A stretch of 64,000 nt of DNA from Phlebopus portentosus (Eukaryota > Basidiomycota > Agaricomycetes > Boletales > Boletinellaceae), in NCBI GenBank assembly GCA_037892935.1, contig JAYXKI010000001.1, forward strand, positions 4,030,001-4,094,000, written 5' to 3'. The notes under the pieces are model-generated. The model saw nothing but the letters and a program-made list of their open reading frames with translations. It searched no databases and was not told the origin of the DNA. A program made the position numbers and the translations under genes. Shown here one piece after another: positions 20,387 through 43,000 of the stretch; positions within the stretch are counted from its first letter, which is position 1; the number at the start of each line of letters is the position of its first letter.

Positions 20387-22437
20387 ATGTTGCTTGCTTT
20401 TCGCGTACATCGTCATCCTATATTCTGGCACCAGTTACGGCTCCTGCATTCACGAGCAATGGCCGGTCCAAAAGTCGGAGAGAAAAGGGAACTGAGCCCG
20501 CCCTTCTCAACGCTAAATCTTGACAAAAAGCGACGCTCTCATTCGCCGCGTCCTGAAAATTTGTCAGTTGGTGCAACAAAAGCTCAGAAGAAGGAAGCTG
20601 CTCAATTGTCGCAGAAGTGTCAGAGCAAAATAGCTAAGAAGCATAAGAAGAAACTAACCGACATCGAGCCTTGCTCTCACGACGATGTATATTGGCGCGA
20701 GGTAATTTCACTGCTGGGGCAAGACGTCGTAGATACTGCGATCGAGGAAGGGACAGAATTAAAGGCACCCTTTGATTTTCTCGAAGAACTCGAGCTGGAA
20801 ATGAGTCGACTCTCATCTAATGGTAAGATCTTTTGTTAAAGTAGAGTTCGGAGAACTAAATGCTTTTTAAGGGGAGGGCTTGGCTATCGCTCCGTCACCT
20901 AAACGGTCGTGGGTAGTATTCGTACCTTTCTCGCTTCCTGGAGAGAAAGTGAAAGCGAGGGTGTATCGAAACGCAAGGCTGCATTCATTCGCCGATTTTT
21001 TGAGTGTCGAGCGGCCCAACCCGGTTATGCGCGACATGAGTCGGGTTCGTTGCAAGTACTTCGAGAAATGCGGTGGTTGTCAATATCAAGTAAGTTCTGT
21101 CGCTAGATATCTCGCTAAATGGTTGAAAATCGAAAATCGAGTCCTCTTTCTGACAGCTTGGCTCAACCAGATGCTCTCCTATGAAACACAACTAGATTTA
21201 AAACGTGATGTGGTCGTTCGAGCATATGAAACCTTCTCAGGTATACCGAAGATCAAAGTTCTTCATGTCGACTATAATGCTTAATTTTCTTAATAGGATT
21301 GCCTTCGCCTTTGGTACCAGCTGTTCTTCCTACCGCACCATCTCCTTTACAATATGGCTACCGGACGAAAATTACCCCTCATTTCGACGCTCCAGTGAAG
21401 GTCTCTCGTCGTGATAAACAAAAAGCCAAGCAACCAATCGAACCTTTCCCGGAAGGCAAAACGATCCCTATTGGATTCAACAAGGTCGGAACACGAGAGG
21501 TCCTTGATATTGAGGTACGCATACAACATTCCTTACGAATGCAGACTTATATCCTGTGTAGGAATGTCTCATTGCTACCCCTGTGATCAATGAGGCACTA
21601 GGGCCCTTGAGAAAAAGCATTCTGGAGTAAATACTGCAGGACCTGTTCTGATGAGTATTCATACTTACAGATGCTTGTCAGAAAACTACACACGTATAAA
21701 AGGGGTGTCAGTCTTCTCCTACGCGATTCTCTCCCGATACCTGCAGAGGCATCCGACATAGCCCTGACAGCGGAAGAGCACGTCTGCGTGACCGACCACC
21801 GCGGCAAAGTTCTCGAGAGGGTTGGGGACAAGCTTTTCCAGTACAATGCAAGCTCTTTCTTCCAAAACAACAACGCTGTCCTCGTCCCACTCGTCGAATA
21901 CGTCCGGGATGCTATTTTCCCTCCCAACACTGAAGGCTCTGTGCATACCCTGCCAACCCATCTTGTCGACGCATACTGTGGAGCTGGTCTGTTCTCAATT
22001 ATGCTCTCTCCATATTTCAAGAAGATCGCGGGAATTGAACTTTCTTCTGAGTCCATTGCTGCAGCGACAGACAACGCAGAGCTCAACAAGCTGCCTCCAG
22101 GTCGGGTAACCTTCCGTTCTGGTGATGCCGCTCATATCTTCGCAGCAGTACCAGAATTCCCGCCCACAGAAACTGCGGTAATCATCGATCCCCCCGAAAG
22201 GGCTGCGACGAGAACTTCCTTGGCCAACTGCTAGAATTTAGGAGTACCACAGTTGTGTATGTCAGCTGCAACGTTCACACGCAGGCGAGAGACGTAGGCA
22301 TTTTGTTGAAGAAGAGCATGGAGGAAGTTGAAAAGGGAGTGAAGGCCGGAAAGTATGTCTTGGAAAGCGTACGCGGATTTGACCTTTTCCCGCAAACAGC
22401 ACACGTGGAGTCCGTAGCAGTCTTGCGATTAGTCTAG
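20387..22437 (+). CDS. TRM2: tRNA (uracil-5-)-methyltransferase, Trm2/RumA type, one frame break
   Basis: Six exons (20387-20822, 20872-21089, 21171-21240, 21297-21514, 21562-21626, 21682-22437), about 587 residues. The protein makes m5U54 in the T loop of tRNAs using S-adenosylmethionine. Visible are a TRAM-like region (SWVVFVPFSLPGEKVKARV), the Cys-rich cluster CKYFEKCGGCQYQ, the SAM-binding segment VDAYCGAGLFSIML followed by IAGIELS, and the catalytic Cys in YVSCNVHTQARDV. The frame breaks once at the C run 22190-22195, in the place of the conserved Asp-Pro-Pro-Arg-Lys-Gly motif: one missing C explains it, and the downstream frame runs to the stop. The first 24 residues are basic with no acidic residue, like a mitochondrial presequence; a second ATG at 20459 would give a form without it. 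Yeast Trm2 modifies both cytosolic and mitochondrial tRNA. Confidence 0.87.
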
Positions 22438-22897
22438 AGGAACTGCATGCCGTAAGCTTTACCTTGGAATTCATCGATGAAAAAAAAAGCACGTATTCTC
22501 GTTAACCAAATAACAAATTCAATGATGGAGCAGCGCATGGTTCGGTATAGTCGTGCACTTCAGCGAATACCAAAAGGGACTTACGTTGACACCCTATAAT
22601 CGAGAGATCACCATATCATGCAGTGCCTTATCTCGAAGCCTGAAGAGTCAAACGTCCCTCTCTTTGGTCCCTTTTGTATCAGCTGACTGCCGACCCTCCG
22701 AGGAAACATTATTAAATCCGTCAGTGTTGAAGCAATCATCAGTAAAGGACTGCGGACAAGTTTATCATTCTGGAAAGATGGATGTGATTTCACGTGATAG
22801 AATAGATGATTCAATCTTCAAGTTCGTTAACAGTCTCCACAACAGTGACAAGACTCAATCCGGTGAGTCCTCCCGTAAATCATGGCCTTGTAAATAT

Positions 22898-23536
22898 TTA
22901 CGTGGTACAACTTAAAAACAGAGACCGATGTCTATCCGTACGTTTTACAACAGCCTCGCTTCGATTGAACGCAGACTTGAACGTGTTCACAAACAGCTTT
23001 GTTGATCTCGCGGCTACTTCGAAAGATGTTGATATGAAGGCAACACAGCCCGATAAGCAAGGGTGTTCTACCACCCAGCATTGGGACGAGTCTACCCTTG
23101 TGGAAATCTGTTGGCCCACAAATAGAGCTGTAAAGGGTGGGGACCATCCAAGATTGGCGACCTTTGAAAGCATGGATCCAGTCGTGGGTACATAATCAAG
23201 GAACCGACCGTCGTACAAAACAGGGGTATGGGGAAATAACAACGAAGAAAGATGACTGTTGTCTCCTACCTGGGAGAAGTCCATTTTAGGGTTGCAGATG
23301 AAAACGGCAACGTCTTCACCAGTTACCTGTGACAAGTAGATCGTCTTCCTAAGGACCACCACTGGACCACTGAGCCAGTGCTCTGCAAGCGCCAGGATAA
23401 TACGTAAAGCATAGCCGTCACGATGCATGTACCACCGGAAAAGGTCGAATGACGGAAACACGAGAATGGAAGCAGAACTTGTGAAGTAGATTCGAGGACT
23501 TAGATGGGCTTCGACATGATCGTTGATCGTTTTCAT
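22898..23536 (-). CDS. Unknown protein, convergent with TRM2
   Basis: An open frame of 212 residues from the first ATG. I do not recognise a family. It is rich in hydrophobic and aromatic residues at the N-terminal side (IYFTSSASILVFPSFDLFRWYMHRDGYALRIIL) and has scattered cysteines. A GT at the codon after MDFSQ could be an intron donor (GTAGGA), so the true protein may be shorter or spliced. It faces TRM2 tail to tail with about 460 bp between stops. It may be a lineage-specific gene or a chance frame. Confidence 0.3.
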   Translation of the reverse strand: MKTINDHVEAHLSPRIYFTSSASILVFPSFDLFRWYMHRDGYALRIILALAEHWLSGPVVVLRKTIYLSQVTGEDVAVFICNPKMDFSQVGDNSHLSSLLFPHTPVLYDGRFLDYVPTTGSMLSKVANLGWSPPFTALFVGQQISTRVDSSQCWVVEHPCLSGCVAFISTSFEVAARSTKLFVNTFKSAFNRSEAVVKRTDRHRSLFLSCTT

Positions 23537-24806
23537 TGTAAGAAAACACAGGTAATTCAAACGTCATCTCTATGTGATGTTCGGCGTGATCAAAGAACGT
23601 CGATGCTCATTGCTATTCCTTTTTTTCTTGGACACTTTCCACGATCATGACGACAAACTAATTTTCTCTCTACAAATTCTTATTCTTACTTAGACACTTA
23701 CAAAGTACCCTCGCTCTAACGGCTGCAGGATCATATCCTGCTCAAATGGTGCATCTACACAACCCTCCTTCTAGAAACAACGGTGACACGAAGCACATAC
23801 TAGAATGACAGTGACTCCATCGTAGAAACTGGCAGGAGGCAGTAGAATCCGTCACTTACTTAAAGTGGATAAGTCATAAAATCGTAATAGAGTTCGCCCT
23901 CGAGGGTACTGATCAGGGGGGCATCCTATCAGAAATTCACAGAAACTAGGACTTGGCATTCAATTAGACCCTAAATATGTAGAACCTCCTGCAACCCGAA
24001 CATCTATTGAGTCTCATTGTCCTGGGATGTTTGAACCACTTCACTTGGTAGGCAGGCTTTGGTAAAAAACCCGCCCGAAGAGAATCGTTTATTTATTCAT
24101 TCAGCAGTCAAGGCTGCAAATCGGATCGGGTGGAATGGAGCGGGATTCTACATTCTACGAGAGTGCTAATTCGAACAAAATGATTCAGGGCCACAGAACA
24201 TGTCACTAGAAACGGCTCTGATTTCCCTTCATCGTCCACTATTATTCACTCGGGTACGAACAATAGATTCGGCCGTGCTAAACAAGTGGCAACCCGTAGC
24301 AACCTGTAGCGCTTGTCAATCGAATAAACTCATCGGAAGATCGAATCTCTGATATTCTGAGATACCTACCACAACCGTCATATCAAAGCTGATCACCTTT
24401 CTGATCAAAATTCGTAAAACGACACATTATCCAATTCACATCCGAATGTATTACTTCGAACCGGGTGTTCTTCACAACCCTGGATCTGCGGCGCTTCGGG
24501 ATTGAACCTGATTGATCACCCCTGCCCTAATTGATCATTATGAATAATTGCTTATATCTACGAAAGGCAAGACCAACACACGCCGTTATTTGAAAAGAAG
24601 GAAAACAAAATTGTGTCGTGGTGAACATCCTAACGGGATTGGTGCCTAGCATGGCAATACAATATATCTAGGAGCGTACACTACATGATAGATACGTGGT
24701 AAAGACAATGGCAACAAAGCAATAGGCGGAATGGAGATAAAGAGGAATAGAGTGGTGCGGGACAAGAAGATTTTTGTTGGGATGATAGCGATAGCATTGG
24801 ACAAAT
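23537..24806. other. Intergenic stretch, nothing recognised
   Basis: About 1.27 kb with no supportable coding frame, tRNA or repeat on either strand. Confidence 0.45.
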
Positions 24807-25340
24807 TCATGGGAATGCGAAGAGCGAAAGGGCACGGGGCGAGGGTGCTCGCAACACACATATGGAAAAGATAAATACGGGTCGAAAGGTAGTTGAGAAT
24901 CGTATCGGATGGGAACGGCCTATAAATACGGCTTCGCCAGGGACTTCATTGTTCCTGTACAGGCAGGAGAGACACCTCGCCCGCGAATACATGCATGCGC
25001 CGTGGCGGAGGCACAAGATCGATTTGTGGGAGAAAGAAAGTGAAACCCTCGGAAAGTTCTCGAGCGAGCGAACTTTAGGCGCTTGAAAGTGACGAGACGA
25101 AACGTGCCGCGACTCACACTCGCTACTCGTCATTGAAGTAGCTCCGACCGAGTTCACAATAGGATCTTCCGAATCTGTACGTATCGCCCCCATAATTCCG
25201 GACGCATTTGGCGGGTGAACATCAAGGCCCAGAATAGACCGCAACATCAGCATCGAGAACCGAAGCCCGGGCGCCGAGACCAAGAACATAAAAAGAAGTT
25301 CCCGGTAGGTTGAAACAATTTTCAGGAAAGATTGGATCAT
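24807..25340 (-). CDS. Unknown 177-residue reading frame
   Basis: ATG-started open frame without recognisable domains. Its first 35 residues are hydrophobic (MIQSFLKIVSTYRELLFMFLVSAPG), suggesting a possible membrane segment, and the rest is Ser/Arg/Cys-rich. It lies downstream of the G-alpha gene on the same strand and might partly be that gene's 3' flank. Not recognised; could be non-coding. Confidence 0.2.
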   Translation of the reverse strand: MIQSFLKIVSTYRELLFMFLVSAPGLRFSMLMLRSILGLDVHPPNASGIMGAIRTDSEDPIVNSVGATSMTSSECESRHVSSRHFQAPKVRSLENFPRVSLSFSHKSILCLRHGACMYSRARCLSCLYRNNEVPGEAVFIGRSHPIRFSTTFRPVFIFSICVLRAPSPRALSLFAFP

Positions 25341-25809
25341 CAGTCAAGCGGTTATGAGGCTAATATCGGAAAAGGAAAAAGTACATACGTTGTTGCTTAT
25401 GATCGTACTACAAAAGCGAGAAATGCGATGAAAAGCGGTTGCAGGCGATTGGTGTTACAGAATTGATTTCGTTCAGGGAATAAGATTGGACGGGCAGTAG
25501 ATCGTTCGTTGATTATCCGACGTAGAGGCGAACGAACGGCGGAATGCATATAAATTTATATTCCCATTTTTGATTGCGAGTGAGGGAGTGCGTGAATCAT
25601 AGACGAAATATGATAGATAAAAAAAGAAAATTCCGTCAGCGCTCCATAATCAAAACAAGGTATATGAACAGGAGGAATCCGAAGTCAATGTGTGTATGCA
25701 GCAAAGCAAAATAAACAAGCGAATGGTACAATTATCCGATGCTCAGCAGGGCGTGAAAAGAACGTAAACGAAGGACGGAAGAGACGAAGTAGGGCGAAGG
25801 CGGACGGCA
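25341..25809. other. 3' flank of the G-alpha gene
   Basis: No coding region is seen. The stretch begins right after the G-alpha stop codon (minus strand) and probably contains its 3' untranslated region. Confidence 0.4.
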
Positions 25810-27696
25810 TCAGATGAGAGCAGCCTTGGTGAGATTGCCGCGGAGAGCAATACTATTCGGCGGATACGACGAGACAAAAGAGCGATTGAGCAATGATGAA
25901 AACGAAGGAACCTAGAGGGGAAAGAAGGAAGAACTCACTCTGGACGTGAGAACGCAAAGGCACAAGAGCATTGTCATGATCAGATACGGCGGATTGACTA
26001 TAGAACGAAAGAAGCCGCGTACCTTCGACAGCTGCCATAACGACTCGTAATAAGGCCGTGTCCGTTGCGTTTGTGAAGCTTTAGAAAAAAAAAAAAAAGG
26101 GTAAGCAGGGGGTCATCATACTCTGATAACGGTCGCCGCAGATATGCCTAATACGTACTGGACGTAAATTTCTCGTTCGCGTGCTTGACCCGACTTCCGC
26201 GAGAGTTTGGTAAATCGAGACCTGAAGTAATCACGACCTTGGATTGCATCGCCGGGCTCGCCCTCGTAGTCCTTGGAGAATGCAGGAAAATATCAGAGGG
26301 CCAAGATCAAAAGGATAAGTAAAAAACGATCAACAAACGGGGAAATGGTTTTTTATATCAGAATTCTTTATTTTCTCTTTGAAGATATCATCCTTATTCA
26401 GGAACAAAATCTAAGTACCATGCGTACCATGCGTTAGAAGCGGGAAGAGCAGCACGAGAACAGTTGGGCGCTCACAATGGAAGTTTGCCGGAACCACTGA
26501 GAGTGGCAGATAGAATCCCAAATGGTCATGGCATCTTGCATTTGGTTCTAAGCACGCACCGCAGTTCCGTTAGTACCGTGAGACATAGAACTGATGCTCG
26601 GTTCAAGATTAGCTTACCGCATCTTTGTCCTCCACCAAACATTGATCGTAGCCACTCAAACTGACAAGAAAGAGTATGGTCGTCACATCCTGGAAGCAGT
26701 GGATCCATTTTCGTCGTTCGCTTTTTTGGCCGCCGACGTCGACCATGAGCATCTCGTGCGATCGTAGCTTGAACATCGTTTCAGTAATACCAACCGTTCT
26801 CGCCTTACATCGGATGATGTCTTGTTCCGAAGGATAGTAGTCCGTCTTGAACACCCGTTCAAGGTGGCCGAGGAAATAAGGTAAGCTAGAATAAGGATGA
26901 GAACAAATCAGTCACAGAATACGAATTAGACAATGGTTGGTGTACTTGTCGGGTAGCGCAGCTTCATTTCCTCGACCCCAAGCCTTTTGCACGACCGAGT
27001 TCTCCCATAAAGCTTTGAGGGGTTCATAGTAATCACTAGGGAAAGGTTGCCCGTCTTTGACATCCGGAGGTTCCTCAAGCATCTGTGCATATGGTTCCAT
27101 ATCCTCCGGAAGCTGCAACTCCATATCCTCGAAAGCCTCGAGTACCTGCTTCATTCCTTGTGTAATATTGCTGAACACGAGTTGCCGATAGAATTCGAAT
27201 TCTTGAGGAGAGAAGTGTACATCATGGATAAGTCGCATTTGCTAGAAGATCAAAGAGTCAGTAATGTCATTCATACAAATCCACGTCGTACGTCGTCATC
27301 TCCAACATAGTATGTGTCTCCAACATAGTATGGGGATGACCTGAAGCGCTGCGCGTATAAACGATGCAATTGGAATTGTCGGGTCGGGAGGACAAAGGAT
27401 CATCGTCAGGGTGGCACTGAAGAGACGCACACGCCATCACGAGAGGAATCGGGCAATCGATGACCTACTTTGAGGATTGTGGACTTTCCAGAGTCGCCAG
27501 CACCCAAGAGGAGGACCTGCAAGATGCAAATAGATCGAAGTTGGATTATCTCGAACCTATGAAAGACGCAGATTCTTCATACCTTTACTTGGTTGTCGAG
27601 CTTTATTTTGGCCTCCCTCAGTTGCCGCTCTGCCTCTCGATGCTTCGCCTTCTCCTCCTCCGTGATACCGCCCTGTGCTGAAATACACGCGCCCAT
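25810..27696 (-). CDS. Heterotrimeric G-protein alpha subunit, with predicted 1-nt exon
   Basis: Ten predicted exons: 27696-27583, 27516-27469, 27241-26946, 26885-26618, 26547-26476, 26410-26339, 26271-26159, 26078-26023, 25939-25939, 25852-25810. They sum to 1,083 nt, i.e. 360 residues, the usual G-alpha size. The N terminus MGACIS is a myristoylation/palmitoylation signal. Nucleotide-binding motifs: P-loop GAGDSGKST (Asp replaces the usual Glu), switch I ARTVGIT, DVGGQKSERRKW, FLNKDD, and TNATDT. The C-terminal helix that contacts receptors is recovered only if a single base (25939, A on the coding strand) is an exon. That restores the conserved Asp after AVE and ends with KAALI. Introns on both sides of that base are 83 and 86 bp with good GT/AG ends. 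The protein couples 7-TM pheromone or nutrient receptors to downstream signalling. A missing base near the previous donor is the alternative explanation. Confidence 0.88.
25939..25939 (-). other. Predicted single-nucleotide exon of G-alpha
   Basis: On the coding strand the sequence reads CTCACGTCCAG, A, GTGAGTTC: an acceptor CAG, one base, then a strong donor GTGAGT. The upstream exon ends in phase 1 (a lone G after the Glu codon) and the downstream exon needs two bases before its frame. Exactly one base makes the codon GAT (Asp), the residue expected in this part of the G-alpha C-terminal helix. Without it the frame enters unrelated sequence. Confidence 0.6.
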
Positions 27697-29728
27697 TGAC
27701 ACTGATGGGAGCTGTCCTTGTAATATTAACGCAAAAGAGAGTGAAATACGGCCGAGAAGGGGCTGAAAGATTGGACGAAGAGGGTTGGGGGGAGAGGGCT
27801 GTTCAGGTGATGATGCATCAGCAAGAAGGCCGGATGGGACTGAAATCAGCGGAGATATGTTGTTCTCACCCTGTAAATAGGACTGGGATCCGCGTGCACG
27901 CCGCTGGGAACGACGAACTAGCGTCGCCGCTGTCGCTTCTGGCGATGAAAATTGAACGAAAAAAGGAGAGAAAATAAGATACGGCAAAGTGGATGGACGA
28001 AAGAGAGAGGGTTACGCGCGTGCTGTAAGAAAATACAAAACAAAACAAAATCTTATTACCTTACATTTACACGCAGGGCCGGTTCGTGCCGTAAACATCA
28101 GGCGCCCATCTCGAAGATATTATTCCTTTTTTTATTGCTTGTTACCTTTTGCAAAGTACACACGCAAAGTAATTGTTATTCAAAATAGTTCATTCGATCC
28201 CGACTCAAGAGGCTTTCCTCTCTAACATGATGAAAGGTAACACAAACACACCCCGAAAGGCGATTGATTCCTGATAGCGGGCGTCAGCATCCCCGACTAC
28301 TTCGGCGTCGTCTTCTGACGTACGTTAAACTAGCATACACCCGGGAGTCTCGGAAGCGCAGTAGACTCGGACACCAAACATGAAACACAAAACTCATTCC
28401 CGTTAGCCGATAAGCTTTTCGTCTTCTCGTGGATCATTAATTCAGGCTCGCTCTCAGCGGCCATGGATTCGACTTCGTCTAAGTTCGCGGGACTTTTGCT
28501 TGCCAGCCAGGAACCATTCTATGCCGGTAGAGTCCTTATATGCGCGTTGAAACATGTGGATCCTTCTCAGTTTCACCACTTTGATCTCCTTGTCATGAAA
28601 AGGTATCGCCGTGTGTTTGACGTGCAAGCGACAGGCGGTATGAACCATCAAACCCGCATGCCGCCACCGACGACCACATACTCATACGCTAGGCAATGAA
28701 TCGAAAAACTTTTGACTATTGCCTGGTAAACTCGCAGTTGGTTCCGAGTGTCAGAAACCCGAAGAAAAAACGTCATCTGTGCGGACGTTCTTCGGTACGC
28801 ACCTTGCAACGTATCAGAGTCATCACGACAGCATCGTATCAAGTTGGCCAACAGGTAAAGGTCGAGGTGCTCTGAATTCTGTGTCGCGCGCCGCTGGGGA
28901 CAGCCACGGCTTTGTCGTCATCCATCGGTACCTGAAGACGCATAGAGCGGAGGAAGAAATTCGAGGTTCGCCGCGGGATTCAGGTAACTTTTAGACGCGT
29001 GCAGGTTACTCAAGCGCATAAACGGCAGGAAAACAACCAATTAGTGTTCTGGAACGAATACATCATAAACGTTATCATTTCAATCTCTTACGCGGGGAAC
29101 AGAAGGGTACGGCGATACTCACATTCGTTTCTCGGCTCCTTTGACATCTTTCTAATAACCTCCCTGGTGAAAGAGAAGCGCGTCCAATTCGTTCAAAGTA
29201 TCGCTATGCCTTGCACCCCGGATTGCATGCTGCCTGAGCGGGGACATATCCAGGGAGCTGGGCTGATGATCGCGGAAGTCACAGGAAGCAATCTTCAAGT
29301 ATGCTATCGAGGACCATCCAGAGAAATCATTCGAAGTACTCGGTCTGCATTGCCGCACTTCCATCTGCATCTGATCAAGAAGATCCATTGAGCATAGCGG
29401 CAATACCAATGTCAGATTCTACAAAAAAACCTCGTTTATGATTTCGACCCTATCGTGTGAAAATGTCAGTCTGAAGCGAAGTGATGTCCGAGTGCTTGAG
29501 AAACGCAACTTAGATAGTAGATAATATTTTCAGTTCAGGCCGCGTCGATCGAAAGTCTTACGTGGGAATTAGAAATTCGAATTCCGCGAACTCCGCCGCT
29601 ACGCGTAGTCACGTGAGCGAGTCGTAAGTCGATCGGATCATCACCGACGATCCTCTATACAAAATTTCTGAGTTCACTTCTTGAAATCAGGAGGTTACTC
29701 CGCATTTCTGCTCCCTTTTTATACTTCA
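27697..29728. other. Divergent intergenic region, G-alpha and UTP18
   Basis: About 2 kb. Several frames of 60-130 codons exist on both strands (for example 28463-28699 and 28999-29391), but none resembles a known family and several start at non-ATG codons. I regard this as promoter and leader sequence for the two divergent genes. Confidence 0.4.
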
Positions 29729-40000: not shown

Positions 40001-43000
40001 GAGCTCACTTCACTTTTCGTCCGGGCCGATGGCCAAAAGCATTTCAAAAGATAATCACCATCGTCCATCGTGGTCAGATCGGTCAAAGAGTGAGTGACTC
40101 TACAGTAGCCCCTTCTTAGGTGGTTACATCATATTCTTTACTTGTTCGGTACGAAGAAACGAAGAGTACATATACTTGAAGCTCTAGAAACTTCTGCAAG
40201 GTCGGTCCAGCTGATTTAGTGTGCGTAATCCCGGTAGTATGAGTATTTAACCCTCCATTTCGCGATCCAGTCTAGCAACGGTACTCATATGGTCTCCACC
40301 CTAAGTAAAGGCACCTTATTCACAAAGGTACAGAGGATACTCGGTTGTGTTTTAGGGAAGGCCAACAATTATCTGGCGAATTCCGTTCAAGCGTCCCGAA
40401 GCAGGCTCGGCGAGGTTTTTTTTTCATCAGAAGCTTCATTTGAGATTTATTTCACCCTACATGTGTTTCTTTTCAGTTTCTTCATGCCGTTGCGAAGGCC
40501 GGATAAAGTAGAATCGAGTTTATGTATGCCGTGCAATGTGCCTTTTTTCTACTCATGAGATCTTTATTGGATACTTTGTTAAAATTGCTCCCGACTGTCC
40601 GAAACTTGGGAGCCGTCCTGCCATCCTGGGTTGATCGTCGTGGACACCCAGAACCACTTCTCTGCCCAAAACGAGACGAAGGGGAGACGTCGATATGAGA
40701 AAACAAGAGATCATTAATATCTGAAATAAAACTTCACAGAATTCCGGATTAGGGCTTGCTTGGAAAAGTAGGCTCTACGATGAAGCAAGCTCTCGTCCAA
40801 ATGACAAGACCTGACGGTGGCGTTGGGTAACATCACGCTTCCGTTGAGTTCGCGGAATGCAGGCAACGAAAGCCTCTCCAAACCAAACACTATGAACACG
40901 AGGACAACGTATTGATCCCTAATGCATAGATGAATGCGAGATGGATCAAGACTTCGAAGGTGCACTTCCCGGCCGGTAAAGGAAGCTTGCTTGCAGGCCG
41001 ATCGCGTTCTCCATGGCCTGACAGGACTTTACTTAAGCTTAAATCCACAAGTTTGCAAGGTGTTCGCATTCCTCCGAGATGTCAACCAGGTTATAAGCAG
41101 CAAGGACCATGCCAAAGCTTTCGGCAAAGGTAGAGTTTCCCTCGAAATCTCCGTTCAATCTTAATCACTATCGTTCGGCCCAAGGTGCAACTTCGAGCGA
41201 GCAGCCTGGCGAATTTGTTGCTTTCTGACAGAACTAGGATATTAAGAAGCGAACGCGCCACGGTGGGCCATCGCGCAAGTGTCCTGTCTGCCAAACAAAA
41301 CACAAGAGATACGATCCTGGTATACGCTTCGATAGCCCAGCCCGTTCAAGTCGGCAAATGGAAGACCACGGCTGGAGCTTCATGAGGTAGAGTTTGCCGC
41401 TCACGGAAAGATTACTTAGACAAGTCAAAGCGTAGTATCAAATGCGTCACGTCCCGTGTTTGCGCACGCATAAATAGATGAAGCTCCACAAAGATGGAAG
41501 AATCTCCGCAGGTAAGAATGACTCGATAGACCGACATTTGCAACGCAAGGAAAACGAAAAGCCGTGTCATGAGTAATCGTCTACAGGCAACCGAACATCT
41601 AGAACGCATCTAAAGCCCCTCAAACAACCGTCCGACACCCAATAGAACTTAAGTACCGCGCAGGCGACGAGCAATGCGTTACATATGCCCCAGTTTGCAT
41701 ATGAGCGGAGGCGCTCAAAAATCGTAGCCGATTTACCAATTACGAACCACATCCGAACCTCCGACAGAAGTTACACCTCTCAAGTTGAGCCTTCAATCCA
41801 TTTTCGTCAGTGCCTTGATTGTTTGCCAACTTGTCCAAGCTCCGAGATATGGTAGTCGAGGATCTTGAAATGAAAGCCAGCGCCGCAAATGCCCTCATGA
41901 GCTGCAACAGTAAGACATGATGACCCACCCGAGACAGCCGACTCACACTATACTCCATTATTACAATTCGGCCGTTATTACTTTGCGGCGGTTCAAGCTC
42001 AAGCAAAAAAAGAAGACCGACGTTTGAAGACATCTCAGGTGAAGAAAATCGTGAAGAAAAAAATGATTTTTGGTGTTACCCGGTATCCGGCTACCTTGAG
42101 TAAGAGCGCCCGAGAAGGGTATACACTATACACTACAGTTTAGTTCTCAATCTAGAACGCTTCCATTTTCTTCGGCGAGAGGAGCGGATGTTGTCAGGTA
42201 CGATAAGTTGATTAGGAAACGAAACTTCACGCAAACGTGATTCTGATGGGCTGTGACCGGATGACACTAGTGTTACTTGTCGCGTCTTCCCAAGTATTGG
42301 CTTGCCCAAATCAAGAGATATCGGGTTTCTATATTACGGCTCGGCAATGGGCAAGCAGGAAATTCGCACTAGTCAAAATTTCAAATTTGATTCGGTGTCT
42401 CGGACGCGATGTGAATGTGAACACAGAAGTGGGGAATCGTCTTACTTGGAAAGTGACAACAGCGCTTGGAGTCATGCGTAGTAGCGCGACAGTGATTCAA
42501 GATTCAGAGTGAGTTAGAGTAATGTAATGGAGGCGGACAGGAGCTGCGAAATGAAGATGCATGATGCGTAGCGAGGTCCGAGATCTGGACTCGTTAGTAT
42601 AAGAGGAGTTGTCAAAGAAAAAAGAAAGCGATGAACACTCGTTTCTGATACAATAGATGTTGCGAAGGCAAGCTCCGCGAGGGACGATTACCGAACTAAG
42701 TGGCGTGCATCGCGGTGGTGTTTTGGTCGACTGCTGTCATGCGCAGTTGCCTCTCAATCGGGATTGCGGCTGTTTTGATTCGGATGGATGGTGGTGGAAA
42801 AGATTGGAATAGTCCGAAAGCTTCCTCTCTCACACTTCGCGCAGGTTGAAGGGACGGAGAAGGCTAGTACGGATCTCACAAGGAATGAAGATGGATGGGG
42901 AAGGCACACGCATGTGTCGAGCAGCATCTGCTGAACTTTTTTTTCGAATTGGAGCCTACTCCTTTTTCATAAACCTACAGAGTCCGAGACGCGAAGGGAC

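Follow-up and report, generated by a model that had tools for sequence, protein, structure and literature searches.

One-base exons are already known. They have been shown in the plant genes APC11 (PMC4674806) and VPS55 (PMC8831610), and a one-nucleotide exon in CYP621A of Fusarium is called by its authors the first in a fungal gene (PMC12940212); in mitochondria, one-base exons have been described for placozoan cox1 (PMC5436844) and Ophiostoma rnl (PMC12308204). A preliminary description of the gene reported here had named Arabidopsis as the known example, which holds for plant APC11 and is incomplete, as plant VPS55 and Fusarium CYP621A have also been published. Our search of the literature, mainly of openly accessible papers, found neither a one-base exon from any basidiomycete or G-protein gene nor anything on G-alpha microexons in mushrooms. 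Long-read work on Coprinopsis cinerea reportedly may treat microexons. The G-alpha case described here joins this very small known group and would be, within the literature searched, the first report of such an exon both for basidiomycetes and for G-protein genes.

The gene is located at positions 27696-25810 on the minus strand of the 64,000-nucleotide (nt) stretch of DNA that was analyzed (the window), which comes from a genome whose 23 contigs total 38.4 Mb. Its product matches G-alpha-o from the PDB as a whole protein (E value of 4e-83, residues 18-356), and a PF00503 match is present in the window. Mushroom annotations give the G-alpha class to which the gene belongs the name "G protein alpha subunit 4" or "GPA2-like." The predicted exons, together with the two introns flanking the putative one-base exon, are listed in Table 1.

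Table 1. Predicted exons of the G-alpha gene and the introns on either side of the putative one-base exon (positions in the window)
Feature	Position	Strand	Description
Exon 1	27583..27696	-	114 nt, ATG
Exon 2	27469..27516	-	48 nt
Exon 3	26946..27241	-	296 nt
Exon 4	26618..26885	-	268 nt
Exon 5	26476..26547	-	72 nt
Exon 6	26339..26410	-	72 nt
Exon 7	26159..26271	-	113 nt
Exon 8	26023..26078	-	56 nt; last bases GCT GTC GAA G, phase 1, one spare base
Intron 8 (putative)	25940..26022	-	83 nt, GTACGC...GTCCAG
Exon 9 (putative)	25939..25939	-	single A, middle base of a GAT (Asp) codon; sole AG-N-GT in the gap
Intron 9 (putative)	25853..25938	-	86 nt, GTGAGT...GAATAG
Exon 10	25810..25852	-	43 nt, T ATT GCT ... 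ATC TGA; encodes the C-terminal tail IALRGNLTKAALI

The last exon, which holds the final 13 residues and the stop codon, needs two bases ahead of its first T, and exon 8 supplies one. The phase clash that had been claimed for these two exons is thus present, and joining 26023 directly to 25852 leaves the frame (VE-VLLSAAISPRLLSS...). On the coding strand, the donor G/GTACGC at 26022 is followed by CACGTCCAG up to 25940, and the A at 25939 is followed by GTGAGTTC from 25938 up to the acceptor GAATAG/TATTGCTCTC that leads into exon 10. The 170-bp gap between exons 8 and 10 contains a single AG-N-GT string, CCAG-A-GTGAGT, in which the acceptor AG and the donor GT are exactly one base apart. Treating its central A as an exon gives a joined coding sequence of 1,083 nt and a protein of 360 amino acids that ends AVE-D-IALRGNLTKAALI and a stop. 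The preliminary description had given the same gap, the same A, introns of 83 and 86 bp, a GAT codon for Asp, and a 360-residue product; every coordinate and length was confirmed, and codon and product were reproduced by the joined coding sequence. The other seven introns of the gene are 60, 65, 66, 67, 70, 80, and 227 nt long.

Other ways of joining exons 8 and 10 were enumerated, allowing a GT or GC donor, an AG acceptor, and an intron of at least 30 nt. Nineteen one-intron joins remain in frame without a stop; none restores AVE-D-IALRG, so that the neighboring exons cannot be joined into the expected protein without the single base, and all 19 were rejected on this ground. The nearest of them, from a poor GC donor at 26018, yields VE-GT-IALRG. 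Two introns fit into the gap in three ways, which leave an exon of 1, 22, or 28 nt between them; a single extra residue results from the 1-nt exon alone. The 22- and 28-nt exons were rejected, as they add 7 to 9 residues that are absent from relatives. To estimate chance occurrence, the gap was subjected to 20,000 dinucleotide shuffles, and strings were counted if they left two introns of at least 45 nt; any AG-N-GT arose with a frequency of 0.19 (19%), YAG-N-GTRAG with 0.00115 (0.115%), and YAG-A-GTRAG with 0.0002 (0.02%). Together with the evidence from relatives given below, the phase clash, the unique AG-N-GT, the normal intron lengths, and this chance of 0.0002 argue that position 25939 is very probably a genuine one-nucleotide coding exon of the G-alpha gene. 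Elsewhere in the window, two more YAG-A-GTRAGT strings were observed, at 42505 (plus strand) and 12446 (minus strand), which are candidate strings only.

One oddity counts against the one-base exon. Introns 2 to 7 (26079-27468, minus strand) carry a CTNAY branch-like motif 16 to 23 nt from their 3' ends, and intron 1 is without one; the two introns flanking the single base (25853-26022) have no CTNAY at that distance, and theirs lie at 40 and 7 nt, with a CTCAA at 34 nt.

In an alignment with human G-alpha-o, the residue of the Asp codon falls opposite Asp 341 of the C-terminal helix (position counted back from the alignment); the preliminary description had stated that G-alpha C-terminal helices carry Asp here. 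In three paralogues from the same genome, the corresponding codon specifies Asp or Glu and is free of introns (L001, AVKET; L005, AIQDI; and L011, SVRDM). The C-terminal helix is the part of G-alpha gripped by activated receptors.

For comparison with relatives, we assembled 170 distinct homologues after removal of overlaps, drawn from the best 120 of 5,419, 33 of 33, and the best 120 of 1,322 matches; all are cluster representatives at 90% identity. They comprise 76 intronless open reading frames (ORFs) on short contigs of ∼1.2 to 4.8 kb and 94 genome-annotated proteins. The short-contig sources "jgi," "lgn," and "ena" were pooled, with source labels copied by hand from the listings and with "lgn" guessed to mean assembled SRA data. 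These short-contig ORFs are presumably cDNA, since they are uninterrupted although the gene has nine introns in the window.

Among the matches listed, all 76 short-contig ORFs have Asp at the codon of the one-base exon. From this Asp onward, the end is 13 or 14 residues long in 75 of the 76 and 12 residues long in one (P0019), and at each of the seven earlier junctions, 74 to 76 of the 76 align without gap or insert. The closest short-contig ORF among the matches listed (P0002; 88% identical, on a contig of 1,615 nt) terminates in VMAAVEDIALRGNLTKAALI, and its last 20 residues are the same as those of the window model.

Asp plus tail was found in none of the 94 genome-annotated proteins among the matches listed. 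At any one of the seven earlier junctions, 88 to 92 of these 94 proteins are correct, which argues that the annotation failure is specific to the junction at the one-base exon. A looser measure, which asks for no gap and for 3 or more identical residues out of 7, is passed by 37 of the 94 at this junction; the preceding AVE suffices for a pass, so that Asp plus tail is the meaningful criterion. Two annotated proteins, Serpula P0087 and Serendipita P0131, have the Asp followed by other sequence.

The ways in which the annotated proteins go wrong fit a missed base. In 24 of the 94, the protein ends VE-E and a stop. When the window itself is read with exon 8 joined to the A and on into the donor, the result is G/AG TGA, that is, a protein of 347 amino acids with this very end; a GTAAG donor read through likewise would give GAG TAA. 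An end of this kind therefore marks an acceptor, then A, then GTRA. The taxa that have it include members of the Agaricales (Coprinopsis cinerea), Polyporales (Grifola), Russulales (Bondarzewia), and Cantharellales (Tulasnella). In four further annotated ends, each residue could be encoded by the true tail in a frame shifted by one base, over 13 residues in Phellopilus, 8 in Heterobasidion, 11 in Daedalea, and 11 in Psilocybe cubensis, and adding one base gives the expected tail. These four belong to the Hymenochaetales, Russulales, Polyporales, and Agaricales, respectively; an out-of-frame match of at least 8 residues occurred in 0.07% of shuffled ends. The two groups together make 28 proteins from five orders of Agaricomycetes.

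The tail is reached with Gly replacing Asp in 19 of the 94 annotated proteins, 12 with Gly alone, the kind to which Dacryopinax (Dacrymycetes) belongs, and 7 with Gly plus one residue. Gly alone would come from models that use the donor G instead of the missing A (GGT), and Gly plus one residue from models that use the GT four bases further on. Four proteins (P0034, P0089, P0109, and P0115) run Ser-IVLR into tail A (see below), as an AG/T acceptor would give. Read-through, shift, or truncation, mostly of a nondiagnostic kind, affects 46 of the 94, the four frameshifts included. The annotated model of P0006 is wrong already upstream of this junction. The conservation in related Agaricomycetes that the preliminary description had proposed to look for is supported at the protein level, by Asp in 76 of 76 short-contig ORFs and by the 24 VE-E ends and four frameshifts among the 94. 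Read back from protein sequences in this way, the one-base exon is probably conserved through the Agaricomycetes and widely missed by gene-prediction programs.

One alternative is that a base is missing at the donor of exon 8, either through an error of sequencing or assembly or because the gene is a frameshifted pseudogene, which would explain a phase clash in one assembly. However, the closest named relative among the matches listed, an annotated Sanghuangporus sanghuang protein (P0001; 402 amino acids, on a contig of 4,361,896 nt), equals the window's read-through from exon 8 letter for letter, and S. baumii P0003 (on a contig of 127,054 nt) has the same end as that read-through. Since both agree with the window, it is unlikely that this one assembly gained or lost a base within exon 8 or the gap. 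The same one-base shortfall moreover recurs in related genera, the gene is otherwise undamaged, and P0002 shares the conserved tail; we give an error or a pseudogene next to no credence. A single intron with a noncanonical or GC donor, such as GGTAC/GCGGCT, is also highly improbable. It would be in frame, would use an AG acceptor, and would give VE-GT-IALRG, with which the Gly and one extra residue before the tail in seven annotated proteins are consistent; against it, we judge TAC/GCGGCT a poor match to any donor consensus, and the short-contig ORFs have Asp in 76 of 76 and Gly-X in none.

It is scarcely more plausible that the terminal exon is merely hard to predict, with errors that have no common cause and an AG-A-GTGAGT string that is coincidental. 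Gene models easily miss a 43-nt last exon that follows an intron, and nearly half of the annotated proteins (46 of 94) do read through, shift, or truncate, yet if the short exon fitted the frame, at least some of the 94 genomes should have it right; 24 ends in VE-E and a stop, four tails one base out of frame, and 19 tails without Asp also speak against scattered errors, and such a string had a chance of 0.0002 in the gap. Finally, the exon might be real and skipped or included by regulation, in which case the skipped form, with its different end (VLLSAAISPRLLSSDAVRLRP...FTPC), could not couple to the usual receptor. Skipping does open a frame of 52 residues, from NATDT to the stop; the resulting end was seen in 0 of the 76 short-contig ORFs, a sample in which a rarer form is not expected, and we regard regulated skipping as unlikely.

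With a genuine one-base exon as the preferred reading, exon 8 would give the G, the single base the A, and the last exon the T of the Asp codon, close to where the C-terminal tail begins. The introns on either side would be removed one after the other, since spliceosomes could hardly occupy an acceptor and a donor at the same time when these are separated by a single base; for Arabidopsis APC11, Guo and Liu likewise argue against simultaneous recognition (PMC4674806). Removal of the downstream intron first seems somewhat likelier, given its strong GTGAGT donor compared to the weaker GTACGC of the upstream intron. For a 9-nt exon of potato cited by Guo and Liu, the downstream intron leaves first (PMC4674806). 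In the other order, removal of intron 8 would recreate a usable donor (GAAGA/GTGAGT), which would amount to recursive splicing.

Two tails follow the Asp in the short-contig ORFs, 44 of tail A (the D-IVLRSNLETAALI type) and 31 of tail B (the D-AIVSKNIRTIML type). In Suillus, P0048 (tail A) and P0078 (tail B) have bodies that are 99.1% identical, the sole near-identical pair found and a sign that the one-base exon may be followed by alternative last exons. Alternatively, recent paralogues could explain this pair. A tail-B exon was sought with strict criteria across the entire window on both strands and with loose criteria in 22000-28000 on the minus strand, without a match, and only tail A was found. 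Alternative last exons would leave room for a more tentative idea, prompted by the VE-E end in Tulasnella, the Asp before both tails, and the Suillus pair: that the one-base exon is ancient, predating the split of the Cantharellales from other Agaricomycetes and perhaps that of the Dacrymycetes, and serves as a fixed hub at which splicing selects one of two receptor-binding tails and thereby the receptor. The single near-identical pair, its possible origin from recent paralogues, and the window without a match to a tail-B exon speak against this idea, which we consider possible and somewhat doubtful.

If genuine, the G-alpha one-base exon may be among the most widespread in fungi, and fungal spliceosomes would routinely handle exons at the lower size limit in a core signaling gene. 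The receptor-binding tail would then be wrong or missing in all 94 annotated proteins, that of the model mushroom Coprinopsis cinerea (P0036) included. Since the gene is common to cultivable mushrooms, the order of splicing around the exon is directly testable, and the special value of the case would lie in its breadth across fungi combined with experimental access in mushrooms.

Among the described systems, the mitochondrial cases likewise place a single-base exon between two introns, but they are organellar and not spliceosomal (PMC5436844, PMC12308204), the one-base exon of Ophiostoma rnl lying between group II introns (PMC12308204). Plant APC11 and VPS55 resemble what is proposed for the G-alpha gene in being nuclear and spliceosomal, in deep conservation, and in the absence of the exon from reference annotations (PMC4674806, PMC8831610), and the VPS55 exon is followed by a strong GTRAGT donor, as in the G-alpha gene (PMC8831610). 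They differ in being land plant genes with proof from RT-PCR or RNA-seq, the VPS55 exon being near the N terminus (PMC4674806, PMC8831610), and since the genes are different, the G-alpha exon would be of independent origin. In Fusarium CYP621A, as proposed for the G-alpha gene, the exon sits in a fungal nuclear gene, where a phase-1 boundary precedes it and a phase-2 boundary follows; it provides the middle base of a conserved codon and is flanked by short introns, and it is missed by annotation and kept by orthologues (PMC12940212). CYP621A represents conservation at the level of an ascomycete genus (20 orthologues, 24 genes), with a G exon (AGGGT) and support from SRA reads (PMC12940212), whereas the putative G-alpha exon is an A in a basidiomycete signaling gene, with signs of conservation at the protein level over several orders.
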